In this document: one piece after another, positions 4,806 through 32,937 of the stretch
How positions within the stretch are numbered: position 1 is the stretch's first letter
How the letters are laid out: each line of letters opens with the position of its first letter
NCBI GenBank assembly: GCA_004565275.1
Contig: SDOX01000184.1
Location: 6,352 to 40,535, forward strand
Direction of reading: 5' to 3'
DNA from: Nannochloropsis salina CCMP1776
Lineage: Eukaryota; Sar; Eustigmatophyceae; Eustigmatales; Monodopsidaceae
Length of the DNA stretch: 34,184 bases
Notes under the pieces: generated by a model
Database searches by the model: none
Told to the model about the DNA's origin: nothing
Seen by the model: the letters and a program-made list of their open reading frames with translations, nothing else
Made by a program: the position numbers and the translations under genes

Positions 4806-6537
4806 ATTCTACAATAAGCATACCTTGCCACTTGCCAGAAGTGTCGGTGAAAGAGTGCACTCGTTTGCGCACGTCTCACTGGCCAGCTTGGATGCGTATT
4901 GTGACCGATGGCCGTGGTTCTCTCTCACGACTGAAGTCTTCTTTGTTCCTCGTAAGCTGTACCTCTACGGTACTGTCTTGATATATATGTTTTATTCCTG
5001 AGGTACTATCTTATAAGGTACTGTCTTACCGTGTTTCTCGGTCGCACGCGCCTTTTTATGTTGCGAAATAATACCTTCATTTCGAGGACTGAGTGTGTCT
5101 CTGTGTGTGTGCGCTTCGGGTGTTTTGAGAAGGCCCGCAGGTGTTTCGTGATTTGATTTTCTGTTCCGTAATATATCTGGATATAAAATAGGACACGTCA
5201 GTTCAGGCATATCTAGTTATAATACTTCGTACAAAGGGCCAAAAAAGTGCAGATGCCTTTGCCTATTTATTGAAAAAGCCCTGTCTTATGCTAGTAATCG
5301 TTCTTTTCCGTAGAGTTTTTATATCGTTAATACAATTTATCAAGTTTAGATATAAGCTTTTTGTATACACTGGGAGTTTCTTAAGAAATTTATGCACTTG
5401 TTCAATGCAAACCAGTATTCATTTATCATCCTATCCAATATTCGCTAAAGTTTGCCCTCCCACAACTCAACCCGACATCAAATTTATCGGAAATTCAGCA
5501 CCGACTTTGTGGGCCGCTTTTCAATCCATTCCTCTGACAAAAATGCGAGCTTCAGTAAATTAAAAAAATAGAAAGTAAGCATCGGCCACTAGACGCAGAG
5601 AAACTTGATACTGAATACCGCCGCATTCGGTCATATGGGTTGTTTCTTTGTTGCATAACCAGCGGCATGCTCCCAGAGGCGAGGGACATAGCCGTAAGAA
5701 GTCTGTGCCTACCCTTCGTGAGCTCAGCAGTGTTATCCGGAAGGGAAGACGAAACAACTGTGCGTGCACTTGACTTTCGTCAGGAGTGCTCCGTCTGTCA
5801 TGGAGCGGGTGTGCCTAATGCCTTTAGACCAGTGAGGTCCGATCGCGAGTTGACATAAGCCCCCCCGTTGTGCCACCGAAACCATTCATTGCAGAGATTT
5901 TTCAAACCCCCTCCGTTGACGGTAGCCGTAGGAAAGGAGAAATATCATCAGTTTGCCGATGGAAAAAGAACGTGGCAGCCATATGTATCAAGAGAAATGA
6001 AGGATTTTCTTCTTCTACCAGGTGGTGCATCGCAATTTGTCCGGCAGGTGCTCAAAGCGCTCTTCCTATTGATTTCGTCGGAAAACCATCATTTTCGCCT
6101 TTTCAGACGCTCTCTGCTTTGATCATAAGCCGGAATCTTCCTACAGACTTCTCACGACAAATCCTCGTATTCATTCCTATGACAAAATGTGCTTTTCAAC
6201 GCGAGGCGCGCTCTATCAATTGATACGTCACGAGAAACAGCATTCTTGCCTTTATGACAGAACAATTTTTCCGGAATTTTTCCGGAAATATATCCACCAT
6301 CGGAAACCAGAACTTGAAGCCTGGTACACCTCACCACGCTTCCCCCTTGCTCGATCAAAGACAAATGCATGTGATCGGCTGAATTAGTAGTAAAAGGGTG
6401 CCTTTGTGGTTTCTTTCAGGCACACTTGGAGCTCACGGAATCGTGTGTCACTTCCTCCATGCTCGCACGTCCAAACCTGAACAGCTCCCCCTTCGTTTTT
6501 CCAGGCACCTAGTCCGCAAAACGATCGCAAAAAAAAC
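4806..6537. other. Gene-poor spacer, no gene seen
   Basis: AT-rich 3' flank of the secreted Cys-rich gene and 5' flank of the next secreted-protein gene. A short motif, ggtact(g/a)tctt, recurs at about 4969, 5001 and 5019. Two close TTCCGGAA palindromes lie at 6269-6276 and 6280-6287. ORFs of 60-117 codons occur in several frames but have no recognisable domain, signal peptide or intron structure. Confidence 0.55.
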
Positions 6538-12907: not shown

Positions 12908-12930
12908 TACAACACCAAGCCAAGCTTCTT

Positions 12931-13238
12931 CGAATGTCATTCGGTGATGGTACATCATCAATGTGGACATGATGGATGTTTAAACCGTACGCTCATTGCA
13001 CCTGCGTATATCACGAGCGGGCACGAGTCATCAGTATGTTCCGGTACCTCCCCATAACCCCCATCTCAGCCTTCCTCCTTCCTTCCAATGTTACTTGGTG
13101 ATTGTATGTCATAAATGTGGACATAAAGGATGTTTCGGCCTTACGTTCATTGCACCTGCGCGTACCACTGGCGGGCAATCCCCATTAGTATGTTCCGTTA
13201 CCTCCCCGTAACCTCCGTCTCGGCTCTCCTCCCTCCCT
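12931..13238 (+). repeat. 154-bp tandem duplication with a shared short reading frame
   Basis: Two copies, 12931-13084 and 13085-13238, share many blocks in order: aatgt, ggtgat, tgtggacat, ggatgttt, cattgcacctgcg, agtatgttccg, tacctcccc(a/g)taac. Both copies keep one open frame ending at the same TAA: (H/K)(Q/K)CGH.GC, then T.IAPA, then VCS.TSP. The match includes Cys and His spacing. The copies differ at roughly a quarter of positions. Whether the peptide is made is unknown; no start or splice context is clear. Confidence 0.7.
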
Positions 13239-19048: not shown

Positions 19049-21888
19049 ATGCCGTCCTTTACTCCTGAAGCGCTTTCACCTTATCGTCGATTGCATACAT
19101 TTACTGTGCCGGGCATGCAATTTCAAGATTTGGTGGTCAAAGTTCTTGAGAAGCCCCAGGCCTCGTCTACTTCTGAATCTTCATCAACCTTTCTTCGCGT
19201 TCTTGTCGGGTACGTTCGTGCGTGAAATTCATATGGCACCGAGATTAAAGTCTGTCAGAAACATTAAGATAATTTTGCAAAGTGTTTCCAAGGAAAATCA
19301 CAGTATGTCATCCGTCACATCCCAAATTCAGGGACGAGACTGCGGTGATAGAGCTCGTGTACCGCGCCACACGCAACGTCAACGTCCGATGCGGACGATT
19401 TCTCCTCGTCTCTGGGCTTGTCAACTGTAAGGATGGCATTCTTCAGCTCCATTGTGGACCGCGCGCCCAAGACCTGCAGTCGTTGCACAAGCATGGGGGT
19501 GCATCCTTTCTGGTCCCTCCCGCCGCACGTGCCAACAATCTTTCGGCCGTTGTGCACCACGTGGGGGTATTACCGGTCAGACCGGTCCCTTTCCAGTCTC
19601 TGCGTAATGGCAACGTCCAAAAGAAAGGGGAGACGCGCCGGGCCAGAATGGGAAGGCTCCAGTTCGTCAAGACTAGGACCGCGGAGGAGCCTTCCCCTGA
19701 CCCTCCCTATACCGTCGAGTACGGCCTCAAGAGTCATTGCGGGGTGTGGTACGTGGCCAGTACAAGCCCTCGCTCCCACGAATCCTTCCTGGAGACGGCC
19801 GCTCGTGCCTTGGAGGAGGCTGTGGAAGGGGAGCGTGCGATAGGGCGGGAAGGGGAGGAGGACGAGGAAGACACCATATGCGAGGGCTACCCATGCCGTC
19901 GGTCTTATCAACTGGCCGTGCATCTTCCCTGTATCACCGAGCTCCACCGCTCGAAGGAGTCTGCGGACGAAAAGACGCATGCCTACCATTTTTATATCGC
20001 CCTGGCCCCCGCTCAAATAACCGAGGTCGACGGGCAGAAAACCACTTGCTCTCTTACCAAAGCCGCCAGCGGTAGCTGTGGCAGTGGCAACAGCAGCAGC
20101 GACGATGGAAGCGTTGTCTCCACACCCACCATAGAGACAACAGCGTTGGAGACGGCACATGACGCGACGGCCCTGTTGTGGAAATCCCGTCGGGAAGTCA
20201 AGGTCTGTCGTCATGAGGAGAAAGGAAAACATGCCTTTCCCCCTGTAGATCAGGCACGGAATTTGCTGGAAACCGGGCTTCGTACTGGAGGAGGAATATT
20301 GGCTGGGCCCGGGTGGGATGCCTTGCGCGAATTTTTCCAGGAGGGAGTCACCGACAGGGACGAAGAGATCGCTCCGCCGGCAGGGGTGAGCGATCCACAG
20401 AGCATGGCAACGGTCCAGTCTTTGTTGCAGAAAATATCGTTACTCGAACGACCCGAGGTACTACCAGTGACGTTGTTGAGCGGCTTCCTGGGGGCAGGCA
20501 AAACGACGCTTTTAAGGCATGTGCTCAGCCAACAAGCGGGCTGGAAAGTCGCGGTGTTGGTCAACGATATGAACGAATTGAACATTGACGCCACCTTGAT
20601 CACCCAGGACCGCCGCCGCCGGGTGGAAGTCGTAGGCAAGCCGTTGAGCGAGGAACGGATAGTGTCCCTCTCCAACGGCTGCATTTGTTGCACGCTCCGG
20701 GAGGATTTGCTGGCGCAGATTGTCGAATTGGCCCGGACAACTACGTTTGACTACCTGATGATCGAGAGCAGCGGGATCTCAGAGCCCATGGCCGTGGCTG
20801 AGACGTTTACCTTCGAAGATGAGCACGGCCGTTCCCTCTCGAGTCTGGCCCGTTTGGACACGACGGTGACGGTGGTGGATGCCGCGGACCTACCACGACA
20901 TTTGCAGGCGTGGGAGAAAGCCAGCACGGAGGAAGGAGGAGACCAGGCTTGCGCCCTGGGGGGAACAGGGGAGGAGAAAAGTTTGGCCGAGTTGATGGTG
21001 GAGCAAATCGAGTTTGCGGACGTGATTGTCCTGAACAAGGTGGATCTGCTGGCTTCGCCGGCGGCACTAGCATCCAATGGTGTGGGGGGCAACCCTTCCT
21101 TGCCCAGAGGCTCGTTCCAATGGAGCCTCCCCGTCCTGATTTCGGCTCTGCAAAAACTCAATCCGCGGGCCAAGATCGTAGTGGCAGAGCATGGCCGCGT
21201 CGATCCGGCCCAAGTCTTGCACACACACGCCTTCTCGATGGAGAAAGCGCAGGCCGCCCCTGGGTGGTTGCAGACGTTGCGGGGGACGAAAATGCCGGAG
21301 ACGGACGAATTTGGAGTGACCAGCTTCTGTTACCGCCGCCGTCGGCCTTTTCACCCGGCCCGGCTCCATGCCTTGCTGTTTGCGGAGGGAGACGAGGAGG
21401 GAGGGAGGGAAGGAGGGAGGGAGGGCGGGACGGAGGGCGGGCAGGCGGGTCCGGCCGCAGGACCCCTTGGTTCCCTCATCCGTGTCAAGGGTTACCTGTG
21501 GCTGGCCACACACATGCAACACATGGTGTTCTGGTCCTTGGCGGGCAGCGTGCACAGTTTCACGGCGAACGAGGAGGAAAAATGGTTGGCCGCCATTGAC
21601 CCGGTGGAATGGCCCGAGACCCTGACGGCAGCCGAGCTCCGGGCGCATTGGGAGCCCGTGTGGGGGGACCGACGGCAGGAAATCGTCTTCATTGGGGTTG
21701 ACATGGAGCAGACGAAGGTGGAGGAGGCCTTGGACGCGTGTTTATTGACGGAGGAGGAAATGACGCGCATGACTCCGGGGGAATGGGCGGAGGTCTTTGT
21801 GGACCCTTTTGTAAGGGAGGGCACGGACGGGCGTGACGACGACAGCGAGCTTGGGAGCGAGGGCGAGGATGAGCTGGGGGATGGTTGA
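19049..21888 (+). CDS. COG0523 / CobW-ZNG1-type G3E GTPase metallochaperone, 905 aa
   Basis: Two exons, 19049-19209 and 19332-21888, joined at phase 2 (sum 2718 nt). The G3E GTPase domain starts at about residue 430: Walker A GFLGAGKTT (438-446), Asp-containing VNDMNELN, the metal-binding GCICCTLR with C504-I-C506-C507, ESSGISEP (about 532), TVVDAAD, and the guanine-specificity NKVD (622-625). A CobW C-terminal domain follows (KGYLWLATHMQHMVFWSLAG from about 774, then the acidic tail). This family binds Zn (or Co/Ni) at CxCC and passes it to target metalloenzymes under GTP control. ZNG1 supplies Zn to methionine aminopeptidase. Odd points are an unrecognised N-terminal extension of about 430 residues containing several Cys/His, and a GGGA-encoded [11 protein letters not shown] insert (21388-21430) inside the C-terminal domain. 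The GTPase call is firm; the metal and target are not visible. Confidence 0.93.
21388..21430 (+). repeat. GGGA array inside a coding exon (EGGR linker)
   Basis: The array is read in frame within the CobW C-terminal domain, between the HALLFAEGDE segment and the GPLGSLIRVKGYLW strand. It lies where bacterial relatives have a short loop. Confidence 0.85.
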
Positions 21889-22822
21889 AGAGGGGTGGCA
21901 GTGGGAGGGTGGAATAAAAGGACCGCAAATCAGGGAGCAGCGGCCCTATAGGACGCTACCGGGACGAGGCAGCTAGCTAGCTGTGTACTTGTATGGAAAG
22001 GGACGAATGTGGCCAGCATTGTTTGTCCTCGATACTTTTTTTGCTTTCTTTGGGTTTTTAAACGTCGAGCATCCAACAGGCAGCATCGGATGGACCGTGG
22101 AGGCAACACGGATCAGTAGGTATGGGCCATATCACAAGCGGCGGCCTGACCGCCGTTCTATTGGCACCGGTCGAATGAGAACGAAGACTAAGGAGGATTT
22201 AGAGGATTGAATCATTATAGTCAGACTGGCTTCTCCAATAAGTATTCAGAATGCTGCGGGAGGCAATGTACACGTGCGAAATGCTCTGCTATCCTGACTC
22301 TTGCGCCCCTTCTTATAACATCACATTACGCAAGCATTCAGTCGCAAAAAAGGCGAAGTAGATTGATCTATGCTATTTTGTTTCCGATCTCCAAAGTGAA
22401 CATGAACAAATACCAGTAAAATGCGTCGAAAAACAGAAAATTTCCTATCCGCAAGGATAAGAGAGGAACTAGAGATTCTGACATGATAGAATGGCGCTGA
22501 GGAAAAACGAGTGGCAGAACACCCTCCAAAATCACTTTATAAGGCTTCTTTGATGAGATTTATTTGCTTCGGCGGGTTGATTCCTGTTGCTTAGTATTTA
22601 ATTCCCCAAAACGAAATCCTGTCTTTTTTGTTCCGCTCGCGGACAAGAAAGCTTTCGCTTCAGCGACGGCTGGGCGAGGGGCAGCAAAGGAAGGAGGGAG
22701 AGCACAAAATAAAAAGATGCTCATAGTTCACCCATTTCTGTACTCTGTCCTGTCTAGCGATTGTTTTCTTTGAGTGAACAGGGTTGTGCGTGTTTGAGGT
22801 GGGATCGGGTCTGGGCGCTGGA
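21889..22822. other. Intergenic spacer, no gene seen
   Basis: 3' flank of the CobW gene (AATAAA at about 21912) and 5' flank of the next + gene. A small inverted repeat, cggcgg-cctga-ccgccg, lies at about 22140-22156. If the following gene has an upstream exon it would be here; a tgaacag acceptor-like site lies at about 22780. Confidence 0.5.
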
Positions 22823-23637
22823 ATGTTCAGCAGCGGCATGCTGGGCTCGGTGAGAAAAACAGGGATTGGTCCAACGACGCTGCACCACGCGCATCAAGCA
22901 TCAAGAATGGGCGGGTCTTCCTCGTCCTTACCGCAATATAAAGGCATGGGATCGAGCGATATGGCACCTTTTAATGGGTTTAGGGAGGAGGGAAGGGGGT
23001 CGGGGGGGGACGACAGGAACCCTCACCTCGGCTCCTTGGTGGTGAAAAACGAAAGAGGGCTCAGAGAAGAGGTAAGTGCGGCGGAACACGACACACGTCA
23101 TTTATAGTGCCGTGAGATGGCCAAGCCTCTCCTTCATGGGAAGGACGCGTCGTGGCATTTTGGGCCATTGGAAGGGGATGGGATAGGACTTGAACCCAAA
23201 TGACATGCGAATAAGTTGCTAGTGTCCACAAACACTACGAGTAAAAAGAGGGTGAGGCTCCTGCTTTGAGGAACCGGCGAAGGAGATAGAAATGGAGATG
23301 GGACATTGTCTTGCATCCTTTCATCCCAGAGTTTGTCTCTTCCTCATTTCCCTCTCTCCCTCCCTCCCTCCCTCCCTCCCTCCCTCCCTCCCTCTTCTAG
23401 CTCTCGGAGATCATCGTTCGCCTCTACGCCTGTTCGCTTACTGTCGTCTTCTTAATCGCTGAAGTCCAGCACGCTCCCCTCCTCCTTCCCACCTTCGAGG
23501 CCTACCTCCCCCTCCTTCCCTCCCTCCGCCCCGCCCTCCCCCGCGCCTTCCTCCTCGTTTTCCTGGGGGCCCTCCTTCGCTTGCCTTCCCTCGCAGCCTC
23601 CACCCTGTGGGAGGGAGGGAGGGGGGGAAAGTACTGA
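22823..23637 (+). CDS. Membrane protein fragment, possibly COPI-associated/TVP15-like, probably 3'-truncated
   Basis: Exons 22823-23071 and 23401-23637 join at phase 0 (gtaagt donor, pyrimidine-rich ttctag acceptor). The N-terminal 83 residues are polar (Gly/Ser-rich, ending [11 protein letters not shown]). Exon 2 starts [22 protein letters not shown] (TM1) and continues to [18 protein letters not shown] (TM2). The pattern 'E..[17 protein letters not shown] ... [11 protein letters not shown]' resembles COPI-associated/TVP15 proteins of the Golgi, which have four TMs. This frame stops at TGA 23635-23637 just after entering a GGGA patch, so two TMs would be missing. The minus strand of the same exon has a long acidic ORF, but the + strand splice signals favour this reading. 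The family call is tentative, and the start could be further upstream. Confidence 0.5.
23348..23393. repeat. CCCT array before a 3' splice site
   Basis: About 11 CCCT units end at the tcttctag acceptor at 23393-23400 of the COPI-associated-like gene, and so serve as its pyrimidine tract. Confidence 0.9.
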
Positions 23638-23638
23638 C

Positions 23639-24307
23639 ATGGGATGCATTTTGCGAGCATGCAATCCATCATCGCCTTGTACAGCTCCAGCTTGTTCTTG
23701 ATCGAGAAATTGATGAAATTCGTGTCCACCAGCACGCGGAAAGGAGGGCCCAAGGAGGTGTTGTACTTGAAAAACATGCCGGTGGGTACCGCCTCTCTGG
23801 GGACGAGAGAGAGGGAGAGAGGGAGGGAGGGAGGGCACGTCACAGAAGCAGGGCTCTTCCTGTAGATAGGGTCCTGCCCCTATACGTCCATTTCAGAGTC
23901 TAATAATATTCTCACACTTCACGTCGTTGCGCCTTGACAGCAGCCTCAGCCTTCTTCTTCGCCTTTTCAATATTTTCCTTCCTGAAGCAGCGTGGGGAGA
24001 ACATGAGGGAGGAAGGGAGGGAGGGAGGGAGGGAGGGAGGAGGTCAAGGAAGATACTCATGGGGATAACGTTCTCAACTATATCTGCCTCTTGTTGCTTT
24101 GCCTGCCATATTGCGTGGAGAAATAGGCACTTTATACGGTTGTCTATAGGTCCTGAAAGGCACATACTTGGATTTAATTGACAAAAAAACGTGACACCCC
24201 CTCCTCCCTCCCTTTCCCCTCCCCTTGTTCACTCACAGGCGAGGGTCCTTAGGTGAGATCTGCTTCTTCATCACCGCATACTTGCGTGTCTTTTTGGCCT
24301 TACCCAT
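23639..24307 (-). CDS. FCF1: FCF1/UTP24 rRNA-processing PIN-domain protein, only the N-terminal half present
   Basis: Minus-strand exons 24307-24237, 23981-23916 and 23796-23639, with phases 2, 2, 1. The protein starts [16 protein letters not shown], then [18 protein letters not shown], then [20 protein letters not shown] and [19 protein letters not shown], ending MLAKCIP. This is nearly collinear with eukaryotic FCF1 (MGKxKKTRKYA...FFxYNTxLGPPY.[16 protein letters not shown]...MMDCLYAKCIPC). FCF1 is the small-subunit-processome endonuclease that cuts pre-18S rRNA in the nucleolus. The first catalytic Asp (VDTN) is present. The second half of the family (ITDCVMAEIEKLG through the C-terminal PIN acidic residues) is not found downstream on this strand: after a gtcagt donor comes a GGGA/CCCT patch and unrelated sequence. 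About 99 of the usual ~195 residues are visible. Confidence 0.9.
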
Positions 24308-25542
24308 ACTCTATAGCACCTAAGGGTCTGTGGTGGTCATAAGAAGGGAAGAAGGGAAGCAAGGAGGAAAAGAGGGAGTGAGGGAGGGAGTGAGGGAGGA
24401 AGGGTGGGTGGGAGGGGTAAGAGCACGCAAAAAAATCACAAGTCAATGGCATTTTTGCCCAATTCCGATGAGGAAAAATCTCCCTCATTACAAACTTCAA
24501 CAAATCATGCGTCCCAAGAACGTCAATGAACCATTTTTATCTCCATCTCCCTGTATTTCGTGACTTCTTGCCGGTTTGAAGTTGTTCCTCGTCGAGCCTG
24601 ATCTTGCCCTGCTTCTGATCGAGGCGCCAATGTGGTGCAACCCTTTGTCCACGCCCACTCAAGAAGACCCAAAAGCCGCACAGGCATGAGACAGTGTGTA
24701 GCACAACGTCCCGCGTTGTGTTGTGCTTGTCGAGCGCGGGGGGGGGTTGTGGTTTGGCATCATTTAGTTGCACGACTTGCCTCTCGTGGGCGGATTGTTC
24801 TCTTCCCGCGCTGTATCCCCTTATTTCATGGCACAATTTCTTGCGGCACACAAATCGAGGACGCCCTTTCTCCCCTCCTGCATGCCACATGCCGATGAAG
24901 AGGGCGTGTATCCCGTGTGATAAGACGGTGGCCGTGTCCAATGTGTTTTATGTACGCATCAAAGCTTTCTTGAAGCATGGGACCCCGCCAGCACGACATC
25001 CAGGCTCTAGGAGCTTTGTGCGATCATTTCGCGTTTTCCCGGCACAAAGTCATGGCTCCGTCGCCTGGTGTCTGATGCCACGAGCCGTACGCTCGTGGCA
25101 TGCAGGAAGTGGAGGGGCTAGGGGTGGTGGTGGATGCGTGCTGGTGTTGTTGCGGGCGTCACATGTAATATTGCCGCAGTTTCCTGCTCGAAGCGGTATG
25201 TCTTGAAATTGAAAAAGATCAATGCGGGGCAATTGCCATATTCATGTGCCGGTTCGCACCGCCGACGTGTGCCACAGGCACGGTCAGATGCCAGTGTTTG
25301 TGTGAGGAGGAACCTGTAGGCCGGGTGAGCTGTTCGATTCGTGGCTGTTTTTTTCGTATTTGCAAGCTTTGAATATGTGTAGGAATCTCCCTCCTCCCTC
25401 CTCCCTCCCGATCAACGCCTTTTATTTTACACACTCAATGCCCACAGGACTGAACACCAGGACACACACGCGCACCACTGTGCAGTCGGCTTCTCCCTTC
25501 TTTCTTGATTTCCCTGTTTACAAACCTGGGCCTCGAGCATTT
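24308..25542. other. Shared upstream region between divergent FCF1 and MAF1
   Basis: 1.2 kb between the two start codons. An unspliced + ORF (24694-25209) and a - ORF (24941-24537) overlap here, but neither has a recognisable product. A strong hairpin lies at 25075-25101. The region may hold a bidirectional promoter or an unrecognised exon set; I cannot tell which. Confidence 0.5.
25075..25101. other. Perfect 11-bp inverted repeat (hairpin)
   Basis: atgccacgagc - cgtac - gctcgtggcat: an 11-bp perfect stem with a 5-nt loop, in the FCF1/MAF1 intergenic region. Confidence 0.85.
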
Positions 25543-25913
25543 ATGAAGTACCTAGACTGTGAACGTCTGGGGTTGATGAGTGCAGCACTGGCCAATCGAC
25601 GCGTGGGAGACAAGGTCTTGATGGGGAGAATAGAGGCTTACTCATGTACGTGATACTCGCCACATGGCTTTGTGATCGGGAAGAAGTGGCTCTATCTGTG
25701 GGGTGGGGCCTTACCCTCCCTCCCTCCCTTCCCCCCTCCCTCCCTCCCTCCCTCCCTCCCTCCCTCCCTCCCTCCCTCCCTCCCTCCCTCCTTCCCTCCC
25801 TGCTTGCCCCCCCTTTTTCTCTGGTTCAAAACGCACAGGCAAACCCCTATCGGACGACAAGCGTCTCAAGAAAGAACTGGAACTGTCCTTCCGTGAGGAC
25901 GGGGCTCATCACG
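25543..25913 (+). CDS. MAF1: MAF1, RNA polymerase III repressor; only the first two exons present
   Basis: Exons 25543-25645 and 25839-25913 join at phase 1. The product starts MKYLDCERLGLMSAALANR, followed by GDKVLMGRIEAYSCKPLSDD and then KRLKKELELSF. This matches the MAF1 N-terminus (MKxLE...L...L......I.GRIEsYScKmagdDKxLfK). MAF1 binds Pol III and shuts down tRNA and 5S transcription under stress. The intron carries a long CCCT array. After the second exon (phase 1, gtgggg donor) the sequence runs into a GGGA patch and then the 3' end of a minus-strand gene. The conserved C-terminal half (containing the WSFNYFFYNK-type box) is not found on this strand. The gene is therefore truncated here or the assembly is broken. 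Confidence 0.85.
25734..25800. repeat. CCCT array in the MAF1 intron
   Basis: About 15 CCCT units with a few CCTT and C6 interruptions, upstream of the cacag acceptor at 25834-25838. Confidence 0.9.
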
Positions 25914-25988
25914 GTGGGGAAGGGAGGGAGGGAGGAAGGGAGAGAGGGAGGAAGGGGAATTATTGCTAGGCAGTCGTGCAAAATGAAT

Positions 25989-26270
25989 TTATTTCTCCCG
26001 ATATGATTTGGGGTTCATTCTCTTCATCTGCGGATGAATGACGTCCCTCCTTCTCCTCCTTCGTCTCCCTCCCTCCCTCCCTCCCTCCCTCCTTCCCTCC
26101 CTCCCTCCCTCCCTCCCTCCCTCACCGCGTCTCGTTCCAGTCGAAGCCGCTGCACGGACTTCACCAAACTCTCCATGTTGATGGCTTCCTCCTCTTCAAT
26201 AGCTTCCTCCCTTCCTCCCTCCCTTCCTCCCTCCCTTTCTCCCTTCCTCCCTCCCTCCCTCCCTCTCCAT
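25989..26270 (-). CDS. 3' end of an unrecognised minus-strand gene
   Basis: The last exon 26027-25989 reads MKRMNPKSYREK then TAA, after a ccgcag acceptor. The preceding exon ends at 26126 with a gtgagg donor at phase 0 and reads EAIEEEEAINMESLVKSVQ, then RLRLERDA. The helix-forming, charged sequence looks like the coiled C-terminus of a eukaryotic protein. The family was not recognised. Its 5' limit is unclear because the frame runs into GGAAGGGA repeats from about 26215 to 26262, which read as GREGGRKGE. Exons further upstream may exist near 26380. The intron at 26028-26125 carries a GGGA array on the coding strand. Confidence 0.42.
26066..26123. repeat. CCCT array next to the minus-strand gene's donor
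   Basis: About 14 CCCT units with one CCTT change. On the coding (minus) strand it is GGGA directly following the gtgagg donor, as in the + strand genes. Confidence 0.9.
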
Positions 26271-26499
26271 GCCCGAGGTGAAGGGGAGGAGCGAGGATAG
26301 GCTGGTAGCGGCCGTGAAGGGGAAAGAGAGACAGAAGAAGGAGAGGTGGGGGTACACGCGATTCTTCCTTCGTGCCTGTACAAGTGTAGAGGCGGAAATG
26401 ACGCCAAGACGGGAGAGAAGGAGGCAGGGAGGGAGGGAGAGAGGGAGGGAGTGAGGGAGTGAGGGAGTGAGGGAGGGACCGTCACATTATGATAGTTGC

Positions 26500-26595
26500 T
26501 TATGGTTCCTTCTTTTCCCGGAGCTTTTCCTCCAAAAAGATGGACACGAAGTTCGACGTCATGAGATGCACAAAGTAATCACCAAAGGGCTTGGT
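26500..26595 (-). CDS. Possible C-terminal exon, unknown protein
   Basis: The minus-strand frame reads TKPFGDYFVHLMTSNFVSIF, then LEEKLREKKEP and TAA. Codon use and composition look coding. The upstream splice site is poor: no pyrimidine tract precedes it. About 200 nt upstream on the same strand, an acceptor with a good tract (taccctttattcccag, exon start 26799) opens a frame containing GHIAVLEDVDETSAAEMHRH, which could belong to the same gene. The opposite strand is also open. Low confidence in strand and structure. Confidence 0.25.
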   Translation of the reverse strand, partial: TKPFGDYFVHLMTSNFVSIFLEEKLREKKEP

Positions 26596-27143
26596 CTCTT
26601 CTATTTATACGCACCGGCTCTCGTCTCCCTCCCTGTCTTTGCGTTGCTGCCGACCAAGGCGACTGCCAGGGTCTTGGTTATCATATCTTAACTTGCCGTG
26701 CCTGTGCATTTCAGCCGCAGACGTTTCGTCTACGTCTTCCAGGACGGCAATATGCCCGGTATATCGGCCAAAAGTCGAGCGGGGTGGAGGTCGTGGCAGC
26801 TGGGAATAAAGGGTAGGGGACAAACAGGGAGGAAATTGACCAGAGCCGTCTTGATCATTCCTGTCCATTTCCCTGCAAAAACTCTCCGGAACAGCACGGA
26901 CGTCACATGCGTTGCCTATCTCCATGCCTGTGAGCGCATCCGCGTGGAAAATTCATCGTGAATGAGACATTTTTAAAGTCCCGAATAGACGCAAAGGAGA
27001 GGGAGAGGCTTGAATCAGATTGAGCGAGGCACTGGCGAGACCCTCCCTCCCTCCCTCCCTCCCTCCCTCCCTCCCTCCCTCCCTCCCTCCCTTCCACGAC
27101 ACACACTCACGACCACGACACCCGCACAGTGTAGGAACGTAGC
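26596..27143. other. Unassigned stretch upstream of the oxygenase gene
   Basis: Contains the possible minus-strand exon starting at 26799 and a CCCT array at 27041-27092, just upstream of the oxygenase start. Nothing firm. Confidence 0.4.
27041..27092. repeat. CCCT array upstream of the oxygenase gene
   Basis: About 13 CCCT units, about 50 bp before the first ATG of the 2OG oxygenase gene, so in its promoter or 5' leader. Confidence 0.93.
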
Positions 27144-30100
27144 ATGCGTACAGGCCTGCGCAGGATCTGCCGTTGTCCCGGACGGTCCTATCGACGTCCT
27201 TCCTTTCCCCTTCCCGAAGGCACTGTCTGCCGCTTGTCTTCCTCCTCCTCCACCACCACCATTCCTGTGATTGACTTGAGCCCTTTCGTAGACCCACACG
27301 CCTCCGAAAGCTCAAAAACACAATGCGCAGAGGCTGTCCATCATGTAAGGGCGAGCGGGGGGGATTGAGACGGGGACTTGGTGTAAGGAGGTTAAGAAAT
27401 CGGCATAAGAAGGCAGGTTGAAGATGCTTGGGAAGGGGGGGGGGCTTTTTACCCCTTTCTTGTGACATTTTCTTGGAAGAGATGGAAGCGGGTAAAATCA
27501 GGGTAGGAGGAAAGGGTGTTTGCATAGCTTATCAAACTGCCGCCACGCTCCCTTTTTTTATTCCTTCCTTCACTCATGTCTCACACACACACAACCGTGC
27601 CTCCATCCTTCCTTCACTTGGCCGCAGGCGGCAGTCAATGTGGGCTTTCTCTATGTGAAAAATCATGGGGTAGACCCGAGTATCATGGACGGGGCACTTG
27701 CGCATGCGCGGGCTTTTTTTTCCCTCCCTCAGGTGCGTGCACCAAGGAAGGAAGGAGGGAGGGAGGGAGGGAGGGAGGGAGGCGCGGACGCAAGGCATTG
27801 CTAGTATGGAAAGAAAACGTCCTCTGTGTGTGATTTCCATTCTTCCTTGCGGGTATTGCAGGTTGTGAAGGAGGAGATTTCCATTCTGAACCAATACCAG
27901 GCGCCGTCTAATAAAGAGGGGACCACCCCGCCTCTCTCCTGTCGAGGTTACCAAAAGGTACGCGCCCTCCGTCCCTCCCTCCCTCCCTTCCTCTCTCCCT
28001 TCCTTCCTCCCTCCCTCCCTCCCTCCCTCCCTCCCTGCCTGCCTGCCTTTTTCCCTCCCTCCCTCTTTCCCTTTTGATCCCGACCCAATCCTCCCTTTCT
28101 TTGTTCTTGTCCCCTCCCCCCCTGTCTTCCATTCCCTCATCCCTCCCTTCCTACCCGCCTCTTCCTCCCTCCCTCCCTCCCACCCACCCACCCACCCTCT
28201 CTCCCTCCCTCCTTCCTTCCTCGAGGCCATGTGCGGGTTGGGGAACCGACTCATGCGCGCCTTCTCCTTAGGTTTCGGCCTTCCCGAAAATTATTTCGCG
28301 CCATTTTACCACCGTTCCTTCTGGTGCCTCCGTCTCATCCGGTGCGTCCCTCCCCTGACAGCCCCCCTCAACTTCAGTCCACTCCTCACACGACCCTCCC
28401 TCCCGCCCTCCCTTCCTCCCTCCTTCTCACGCCCCCCAAACAGCTACCCGCCTGTCTCTCCCCAGGAACGAGAGAGCCTTTCCTCAGGCCTAGGGTGCGG
28501 CGAGGTCCGTCCCTCCCCATCCTCCCTCCCTCCCTCCCCCCCTCCGCGCGGTGCTTCCCTTTCCCCTCTGGACACTTCCTTCCTTCTCAGCCCTCCATGG
28601 CTTTCGCTTTCTTGTCAATATATACGAGAAAGGCTTTCGTTTTCTTGTCAATATTTGCGACAGAGGGACGTGTACCCTTTCTACCCGATGCCCGCGGGTG
28701 TGATGGGAATCCCCTCCTCCCTCCCTCCTTATGCCCTCCTATTCACTCGATATCCCCCCTACTTTCCTTTTCTTCTTCTTTGAGAATCTTCTCTTCCTTT
28801 CCTCCCCCCTCCATTCCATTTCCCTGAGGTCTCTCCGCCTATGTCCTCCCTCCTCTCCTCTTCTTCCTCTTGAGCCCATCCCTCGGTGACGCGTGGAGTA
28901 TCTTCCCTGCCTTTATTTTCCTGGCATGCCGCCTCTCCCCACGTGTCGTTCTCATCCCATTTTTCAAAAAATACTTTCCCTCCTTCCTTTTCTCCACTCC
29001 CTCCTCCCTCAGCACTCAGATTACGGGTGTCTGACCCTCCTGAACATGGATGAATCGACGCAGGCGTTACAGGTAAGGTGTCAATGGAGGGGGGAAATAC
29101 CCGGAAAGGGATAGAACGCTCTCAACGCAATGAAGAAGAGGAAGGAAGGAGTCTACAGAGACCTTGAAGGCAACAAAGGAGGGGAAGGAAGGAAGGCGAG
29201 AGGAAGCCAGGGCGAGGGGAAAGAGAGGATGGCGCGCGAGCTATTTGACGTGCATTGGATTGTCTTGATCCAAATACCCTTTCCTCCATGAAAATCGCTC
29301 CGTCCGCCCCATTTCTCCCTCCCCTACTTCCTCTCCCTCCCTGCTTCCCTCCCTCCCTCCCTCTTTTCCCTAGGCCCGCAACACCCAGGGTGCATGGATC
29401 TTCGCCGACCCCATTCCGGGTACCCTTTTGGTCAACATCGGTGACATGCTCTCCAGATGGTAGGCGCAGGCTTTTCCTTTTCTTCCCTTCCTCCCCTTCA
29501 CGTCGCCTCATCTAGCCTCCCACGTACTTTGCCTTTTGTTTTCCATTCTCGGCCTCCCGTGTCGAGAAAAACGGCAGCATTTCCTTCCAATTTCCATGCC
29601 TTTGGTCCTTCATTTCCTCCATTTCCTGCGTTCGCCCATCACCTTTCCTATCTCGTTCTATCACTTCCCTCGTGGCAACCTTCTTCCAACGATGAAGGAA
29701 ATGCTCCCCCCCATCCTCAGCCCAATTTCCCCTCGAGACAAGCTTGTCCCCTCTGATCACGCCTCCCTTTCTCCCTTTCTCCCTCCCTCCTTCCTTCCCT
29801 CCTTCTCTCCCTCTCTCTCAGGTCGAACGGGAAATTCAAAAGCACGCCGCACCGTGTCCTCCCCGCAGTAGGAAAGGCTCGAATCTCCATTCCATTTTTC
29901 TTTGAGCCCAATTTGGACACCCTGGTGGTGCCTCTGCCTGAATGCGAGAACTACGCCCGAGGTAAAGTTAGGGTCAGGGTTAGGGCCTGAATTGGATTTG
30001 CCTTTCACATCCCTTAAGTACAAACATGTATCTGGATGAATGGTCGATACATATTCATGGCCTGAACTTGCCGTTATGTATTATGTATTTGAGATTGTCT

Positions 30101-30381
30101 GTCTTCAACTTCAGTCGTACGTCTTCTTTCTGAGGACAGTTGGGAGATACGTTGTGAATTACTTCGCTGACCACCTTCCATATTTTTTTATTCTTATATA
30201 ACTATATTACATTATATATTACACAGCGCACGGGAAGATTTACTCCTCCGTCCTGTTTGCCGATCATTTGCGCTCGAAAGTCACGAATAACTTTTCCTTT
30301 TTGGAGCCGAGTCCGACTGCAACGTCACTGACCGGGTCAAAGGTCCACACAGTTGACGGAAAGGGAAGCGAAAGGCACTGA
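27144..30381 (+). CDS. 2-oxoglutarate/Fe(II)-dependent dioxygenase (isopenicillin-N-synthase-like fold), 339 aa
   Basis: Exons 27144-27344, 27628-27732, 27862-27957, 28226-28341, 28444-28504, 29013-29072, 29374-29459, 29822-29961 and 30227-30381; phases close (1020 nt). An Arg-rich N-terminus (MRTGLRRICRCPGRSYRR) could be an organelle-targeting signal. Then IPVIDLSPF and VGFLYVKNHGVD (DIOX_N), RGYQK, LMRAFSLGFGLPENYF, CLRLIRYPP and GCGEHSDYGCLTLLNMD with the iron ligands His-x-Asp. LLVNIGDMLSRWSNGKFKST is followed by PHRV with the third ligand His, and then ARISIPFFFEPN. The ligands and fold signature are complete, so an oxidase/hydroxylase activity is likely. The substrate is not predictable. 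Between RGYQK and AMCGLGNRLM the family usually has some 50-60 residues (a GPNQWP-type segment) that are absent. The 268-nt intron there is almost entirely CCCT repeat. Confidence 0.9.
27958..28225. repeat. CCCT-rich intron at the position of a missing protein block
   Basis: Nearly all CCCT/CCTT/CCCA units between oxygenase exons 3 and 4. No coding segment for the expected intervening residues is visible in it. Confidence 0.8.
28599..28664. repeat. 33-bp tandem duplication in an oxygenase intron
   Basis: Two copies of ggctttcg(c/t)tttcttgtcaatat plus about ten diverged bases (28599-28631, 28632-28664). Confidence 0.8.
29968..29985 (+). repeat. Telomere-like hexamers in an intron
   Basis: TTAGGG-TCAGGG-TTAGGG directly after the gtaaag donor of the last oxygenase intron. 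Confidence 0.7.
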
Positions 30382-32937
30382 TGGTTAGACACGGTGCCAA
30401 TAGGCGACTTCTACAGACTGTAGCTCGGAGAAGGAGGGGGAAATAAAAATGTAACTAAGGCACCTGCAATAGTCTCTCATTGCTTATTGATGTTTATAAG
30501 GCATGAAGGCATGTGTAACCTCCCTATAAACTTTGAGTCTTTCGCTCGCATATGGGCACCGTTTTCTCTAAAATTTCTTGTTCGATGTCTTATCAAATTG
30601 GTATGCTACGTTTATGTGGTCATGCGGTGTGATTGGGATACTTAAAATGGCTAGAACGTGGCTGAAGCGTGTGATTCGAGGTCATTCCGGAGTCGAGTAC
30701 GAGTATGCTGGACTGATCGTATATGATCAGCTGGAGAGTTAAGACACACGCGGGGGCATCGGACTTCCGATGCAGTAGACAAGTCTTTGTCGCTATCTGA
30801 CAGGAGTAGGCCGCACTTGTCCTAGCTGTGTCTCCTCAAATCGTCAATAATATCAACGTGGACTACTACGCTGTGTATATTTTGTAAGTGATGCGCAACC
30901 CATCCAGAATCACAATGAAACGATCTATGAACAATATAAACGACCAGGCAAGGCGCTGTTTGAGTCACAGTTGCACCAAATATGAAGAGGCGCCGATGAT
31001 GCCGGAGGCAGAAGCCAAAGGGTTTCGATACGTAACATCCTATGGTTGAACAACAAAAGCGATTAAGAGCCATGCAATAGAAAGTCAACCGTGACCATAC
31101 ACTGTTTTGGTTAAACAATAAAAGGGAAAAGTGTGCTTTCATCAGAAAATGACCTTTTACACGCACAATGCATTTGAAAATCGATGCACATCTTCATCAC
31201 ACTTTCACCGACACTCTAGACAATTATGTTCAGGTGTACATGGCTGCTCTCATCCTTTTCACACATGTGGATACGTATATTTCACCCGGACTCAATACCT
31301 TCAGCAAACTTACCGTAGTCCTTCGAGCTACGCTTGGCCCCTGTGGTAGAGCTGCAGAAGATGGCTGTGACCATGAGGCCCATAATCAAAGCGATTCATA
31401 CCAACAGATACGCGAGACGGATTGCTAGTTGTATTGCTTTTGACTGTGAGATAGACAGGACATTTCGAAAGGGAAAGATGGTAACAGATCAAGCTCGTGC
31501 CTCACAAGATATTCCCATGTCAGTTAAAATACAAGGCGTACGGTTATGTTAGTCGTCAAACGACGTATGTCTATACATTTAAACATGTTGCGTACATAGA
31601 AAAGACATAAACCTGCGCAAAGGCGCATGTAGGCTGAGAGATGAATCAACGTTAATATTATGCATGTCAGGATGCAAGTCGGTTTTCCTGGACACATGGC
31701 AGACAAATAAGACCAAAAGAGTCCTCTTCTAGGAGTCCTCGACCAGGACCCGACCGTTTCAGTTCCGTAAGTATTTCAATCGCACACTGTTGGTGTCTCG
31801 ATCTGCACACATACACGGTTGATGTGAAGATTGGACATCATTGATAGAAGTAAGAAGTACGCATGTAAAATTACATCTCGAATATTTGGGGAGAAGCCGT
31901 TGCCTGATTCGCTGCACACTTAACGCAAGGGAAAGGTGTGCCCTTAGCGGTCTCATACCTTAACAGGACTTTTAGGAACCCTATCTTCGGGTAAACTGCT
32001 ATCAAGAGACATGTAATCGAAAAGCACTAGTTTCATGCATAGTCTTGAGACATCGAATGAGACCTGGACAACAAAGGCTAGGGGTATAATTGGAGGCTAT
32101 GGCGACCGTTTCCATCCTGGCGCCTCGTTGTTGACTTAAACAACGAAACTTTCCGTTACGACAGACCTATCGGTGGCGTGTGCACGTAACTAGACTAGAT
32201 ACATTTCGCTTCTTGGAAGGGAAGCGGCGGTCATCGAAGTCACAATAAGATCTCAGCATTTTTAAGATTTTGGTCTTTAAACAATCTCTGTCTGGGTCGA
32301 TGCCTTTGCATCTAACGCTGATCAAATATTGAAATGACATTCTAAAACATTCGCCGATAAGATCAAATATTGAAATGACATTCTAATACATTCGCCGATA
32401 AGATTTCTGGATCAACACTCCTTAATATCTATAAAAATCTGAAAAGCTTTCAATATTACTGAAGCGAAACTTCTACACTACATTGAATTGTCAGTCAGAC
32501 AGATCTGTGTGGCGTTATAAATGAAGGAATGCGTAAAATATAATATATATCAAAGAAGCAATAATATGATGTGATTGCTGTCCGAACGTCGACCCGCAAG
32601 TCGTAAATTTTCCCTTGAATTCGACATTTTCGTGATGGGAAAAAGAGATAAGGTCCGTTTTTTATCTGCTGATAGGGAGCTACATTCGATAGCCATAGAA
32701 AAGGAGATTTGTAGTGCATGCCCAATGGAAATGAAGCCGAAAAGCTAGAGATGTAAAGCTTGCGTCTGTGAAAGTAACGAAGGATAAATAAATTAAAGGC
32801 GCCTTGAAGCAAACAACTAAGCGACAAAGCAAAGTTTACATTCTTAAGTTTGCCGACTCATAGAGCTCTGAAGTTTTTGCAAAGTAAAGCAGGATGAGAG
32901 CGGACACAAACCACGGCTAGGCACTACTCATGACCCT
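30382..32937. other. Long AT-rich spacer between convergent genes, no gene seen
   Basis: 2.5 kb between the 3' ends of the oxygenase (+) and the SEC22 gene (-). No GGGA array, no recognisable protein; ORFs reach 114 codons without domain or splice support. It holds one 41-bp tandem duplication. It could contain an unannotated noncoding transcript, but nothing shows one. Confidence 0.6.
32320..32401. repeat. 41-bp tandem duplication, nearly identical
   Basis: Unit gatcaaatattgaaatgaca... at 32320-32360 and 32361-32401, differing at one base, so recent. Confidence 0.93.

Follow-up and report, generated by a model that had tools for sequence, protein, structure and literature searches.

Truncated FCF1 and MAF1 genes in a Nannochloropsis salina assembly are best explained by sequence dropout at GGGA/CCCT arrays

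Breaks and collapses at simple repeats have been described in draft assemblies, as set out in the part of PMC7757076 consulted here. For relatives of the present alga, the consulted part of PMC8570151 describes a very high simple-repeat content and, for M. gaditana, two short-read assemblies with low completeness; the PacBio assembly of M. gaditana is 30.7 Mb (PMC5814478). On tetranucleotide arrays in Nannochloropsis, our literature search found nothing relevant. Here we analysed a window of 34,184 nucleotides (the whole stretch of DNA under study), corresponding to positions 6352–40535 of contig SDOX01000184.1 (C49) in a 26.5-Mb, 103-contig assembly of Nannochloropsis salina CCMP1776 that is presumably short-read. 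Spliced genes, the size of the genome, telomeric TTAGGG ends and introns rich in arrays are all in keeping with an alga of the Nannochloropsis/Microchloropsis type. As in the draft assemblies treated in the consulted part of PMC7757076, sequence appears to fail beside G-rich simple repeats, and sampled contig ends and N-runs occur at such repeats. Unlike the cases described there, the joins in our window carry no N, and exons vanish without a visible gap.

The exon coordinates confirmed that FCF1 on the minus strand and MAF1 on the plus strand stand back to back, as an earlier note on this DNA had proposed for what it regarded as a displaced block. FCF1/Utp24 is a PIN-domain rRNA-processing nuclease that is essential in yeast, and MAF1 is a repressor of RNA polymerase III. 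FCF1 exons 1–3 (24307–24237, 23981–23916 and 23796–23639, minus strand), whose edges are the preferred one among several possible splice choices, encode approximately the first 99 of 198 residues. The window gene aligned with residues 1–101 of the 198-residue human FCF1 chain (E = 5.9e-30), with 70% identity in exon 3, and the exon-3 motif pattern had a single match in the window. When human FCF1 was searched against the whole assembly, exons 1 and 3 were found at a single genomic location, which is this one; even the 26 residues of exon 1 were detected. Compared with known FCF1/Utp24 proteins, the N-terminal region and the first half of the PIN domain, including DTNFINFS, are present, whereas the second PIN half with KGTYADDC is absent from the readable assembly. 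We take this absent half as missing sequence and not as a sign of a different protein. A GT donor-like site (gtcagt) follows exon 3, and the adjacent array is intronic.

Several searches were directed at the second half of FCF1. Beyond residue 101, tblastn of the window yielded only chance-level matches (best E = 0.038, on the opposite strand and 13 kb off), and a degenerate KGTYADDC pattern with up to three mismatches had zero matches on either strand of the window. With one mismatch allowed, KGTYADDC had zero matches in the readable assembly as well, a pattern search that is blind to a motif split by an intron. The PF04900 profile, the human FCF1 query (beyond the window exons) and the C-terminal half of yeast FCF1 recovered no FCF1 remainder from the readable 26.5-Mb assembly, each reaching only one open frame on another contig (C45); the absence is judged on readable sequence only, and N stretches could hold the missing exons. 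The C45 frame was rejected as the remainder because it reads like UTP23, and we assume it to be a UTP23-like paralogue. Also rejected was a tiny intron of approximately 34 bp leading from FCF1 exon 3 into the antisense of the left-hand gene's exon, as none of the three minus-strand frames was FCF1-like by eye. From the same readable assembly we recovered control dyskerin over 392 of 420 residues (query 23–414), PCNA over 258 of 261 (query 1–258) and RAD51 over 316 of 339 (query 24–339), as well as a further RAD51-like gene spread over three exons, including an exon of 44 residues at 48% identity. Recovery of the controls and of exons of 44 and 26 residues indicates that the search is able to see such exons; the control genes are mostly single-exon and thus no fair sample of array-rich genes.

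MAF1 exons 1 and 2 (25543–25645 and 25839–25913, plus strand; other splice choices are possible) encode the N-terminal box only, with the motif GRIEAYSC. This box matched two MAF1 chains of solved structure (E = 1.7e-4 and 4.1e-4), and Pfam Maf1 was matched at positions 2–29 of 174 with 18.2 bits, below the 28.9-bit cut-off. The later conserved boxes were unmatched in low-power genome searches that missed the known MAF1 exons as well and so had no working positive control; in the window, nothing but chance-level matches appeared beyond exon 1. MAF1 exon 2 ends at a GT donor-like site (gtgggg) that runs into an intronic GGGA array at the right junction (25914–25956). Head-on to MAF1 lies a tentative last exon of a minus-strand gene (26124–26221), an open frame ending in gtgagggaggg; its codon score of 8.5 is possibly inflated by purine-rich sequence, and Pfam gave no match and no known relative for it. 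The right boundary of the block is less certain than the left.

At the left boundary, the neighbouring gene (plus strand) comprises exons at 22823–23071 and 23401–23606, the second of which is membrane-protein-like and ends at gtgggagggaggg, with a donor-like site (gtggga) at 23606. No later exon was identified after this position. The earlier note had called this gene COPI-associated-like, a label that we dropped: the gene had zero Pfam matches at E values up to 1 (up to 10 for the second exon), it did not fit the family profile PF08507, and PF08507 searched over the assembly gave three matches below the cut-off, all on other contigs and none on the contig of the window. The left junction (23607–23638) consists of 32 bp over a GGGA array of only about 20 bp, in which the intron of the left gene meets FCF1 intron 3 head-on. 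These 32 bp, where the two introns collide, leave no space for an acceptor in either of them. The joins at the block edges contain no N. The proposal that all three genes are cut off at arrays stands in part. The distal parts of FCF1 and MAF1 were not found beside the GGGA/CCCT arrays and the left gene does stop at one, but none of the three is cut in mid-frame; their last exons end at donor-like sites, and the FCF1 and MAF1 arrays are intronic.

A similar hole was present in a gene that is unrelated to the FCF1–MAF1 block and lies outside it. This 2OG-Fe(II) oxygenase gene (27266–30381, plus strand) has nine identified exons that read through to a stop codon in a single frame, with a complete 3′ end, and includes exons of approximately 20 residues. 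Both Pfam DIOX_N and 2OG-FeII_Oxy were matched, the DIOX_N match reaching only position 65 of 117. In five PDB alignments, out of 68 chains matched, the oxygenase was short by 33–49 residues between query residues 64–68 and 90–98, the solved chains carrying an extra 45 residues (9ovh), 44 (6jyv, where the N-terminal part of the alignment is weak when taken alone), 49 (the thymine dioxygenase chains 5c3p and 5c3o) or 33 (6lsv); natural variation in length could account for part of this difference. Inside this residue gap lies the exon joint at residue 93/94, and the corresponding intron (27958–28225), which is filled with CCCT arrays, is the site of the missing residues. Since the same kind of hole occurs outside the block, the fault is not peculiar to it. 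Exon loss at arrays involves unrelated genes, namely FCF1 and the oxygenase, with MAF1 a probable further case.

Assembly dropout at GGGA/CCCT arrays is, in our judgement, the best explanation for these observations and a highly likely one. Three stretches would be missing from the assembly: one between exon 2 of the left gene and FCF1 exon 3, one after MAF1 exon 2, and one inside the oxygenase intron 27958–28225. Their flanks would have been joined at short, near-identical arrays of the kind present in many introns here, and low coverage or false overlap at G-rich simple repeats may have been the cause. The organism itself would possess the missing exons, and MAF1 would have been affected in the same way as FCF1; since FCF1 is essential in yeast, its true loss is unlikely. 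FCF1 and MAF1 most likely form a normal head-to-head pair and lie where they belong. Counting against dropout, the left array of about 20 bp is short for a false overlap, and the joins are free of N. The suggestion in the earlier note that arrays had served as false overlaps survives insofar as an assembly fault is the preferred reading, although the arrays would have led to lost sequence rather than to a displaced block.

The gene fragments are real; a displaced or rearranged module is not supported, because relocation predicts the rest of FCF1 elsewhere, and this was not present in readable sequence. We consider it quite unlikely that the assembler moved the FCF1–MAF1 block here from its true place with arrays as false overlaps. 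Such a move would be consistent with the arrays at both block ends, and the neighbours could be incomplete too; however, the distal FCF1 exons should have remained at the true place, where no search of the readable assembly found them, and the oxygenase hole outside the block would need a separate cause. Arrays at both ends would equally fit a true array-mediated insertion or translocation in the living genome that broke FCF1, MAF1 and the left gene, yet this would have disrupted an essential rRNA-processing nuclease, no left-behind FCF1 half was detected in the readable assembly, and FCF1 exons 1 and 3 occur once only. We regard such an event as very unlikely.

We give similarly little credence to FCF1 and MAF1 being complete in place, with remaining exons that were missed because they are tiny, diverged or nested in neighbouring genes. 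In favour of this reading, the oxygenase has exons of about 20 residues, and the MAF1 queries were of low power. Nevertheless, with an exon 3 that is 70% identical to human and a 26-residue exon that was detected, no piece of the second FCF1 half appeared on either strand of the window, and the introns of the left gene and FCF1 collide within 32 bp. In an exceedingly improbable scenario, FCF1 would be truly split, its halves being transcribed from two loci and united by trans-splicing, with complementary GGGA/CCCT intronic arrays pairing the transcripts and the second locus lying outside the readable assembly. Spliced-leader trans-splicing is reported in relatives in the consulted part of PMC8570151; for exon joining by trans-splicing in relatives, we saw no report in the literature that was consulted for other purposes.

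Marks of simple repeats elsewhere in the assembly are also in favour of dropout. Both N-runs met in the sampled assembly stretches (nine, 88 kb together) begin at a purine repeat. One of them follows GTGAGGGAGGGAGGGA immediately, and the exon that precedes it bears a weak resemblance to glycerol-3-phosphate dehydrogenase (17 bits against a cut-off of 23.1); the far side, seen for one of the two, does not start with an array. Of 20 contig ends fetched, one was telomeric (TTAGGG) and was excluded before the count. In six of the other 19, the final 60 bases contained a run of 20 or more bases that were all purine or all pyrimidine, compared with 5.5% of 3,430 background windows (p = 4e-4). Contig starts were left out because 16 of 18 read N.

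Biologically, the locus is ordinary under this explanation, and the result is foremost a practical warning for users of the assembly. In this assembly, whole exons can disappear from genes whose introns are rich in GGGA/CCCT, and no gap marks the loss, so that without reads neither a truncated gene nor a seeming rearrangement next to an array should be taken as biology. Any claim of FCF1 or MAF1 loss made from this assembly is unsafe.

Arrays are abundant in this DNA. Of the 12 introns examined in four genes, 8 contained an array with three or more exact units (one of the eight being the suspect oxygenase intron), and 18% of positions in 22800–30400 are no more than 30 bp away from an array of this kind. 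A count over 125.8 kb gave 36 arrays of at least five units, to which the window contributed 24 and the nine sampled stretches (88 kb) the other 12. With this abundance, an exon edge beside an array is to be expected in the window, and it is the missing downstream exons that are remarkable instead. Codon-score scans for exons were of little use, as purine-rich repeats inflate GAG and GAA codons.

Within window positions 23072–30226, the arrays were CCCT-sense in seven of the eight array-bearing introns, and 6 of 12 introns had an array within 50 bp of the acceptor. In this small sample, CCCT arrays near acceptors look as if they were polypyrimidine tracts. Elsewhere in the window, we observed a 154-bp tandem repeat in two copies with 78% matches (12928–13236) and a 41-bp AT-rich tandem repeat in 2.1 copies with 97% matches (32320–32404). 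An 871-codon open frame (19273–21888), which may encode a CobW-type GTP-binding protein, contains an in-frame GGGA array at 21384–21449.
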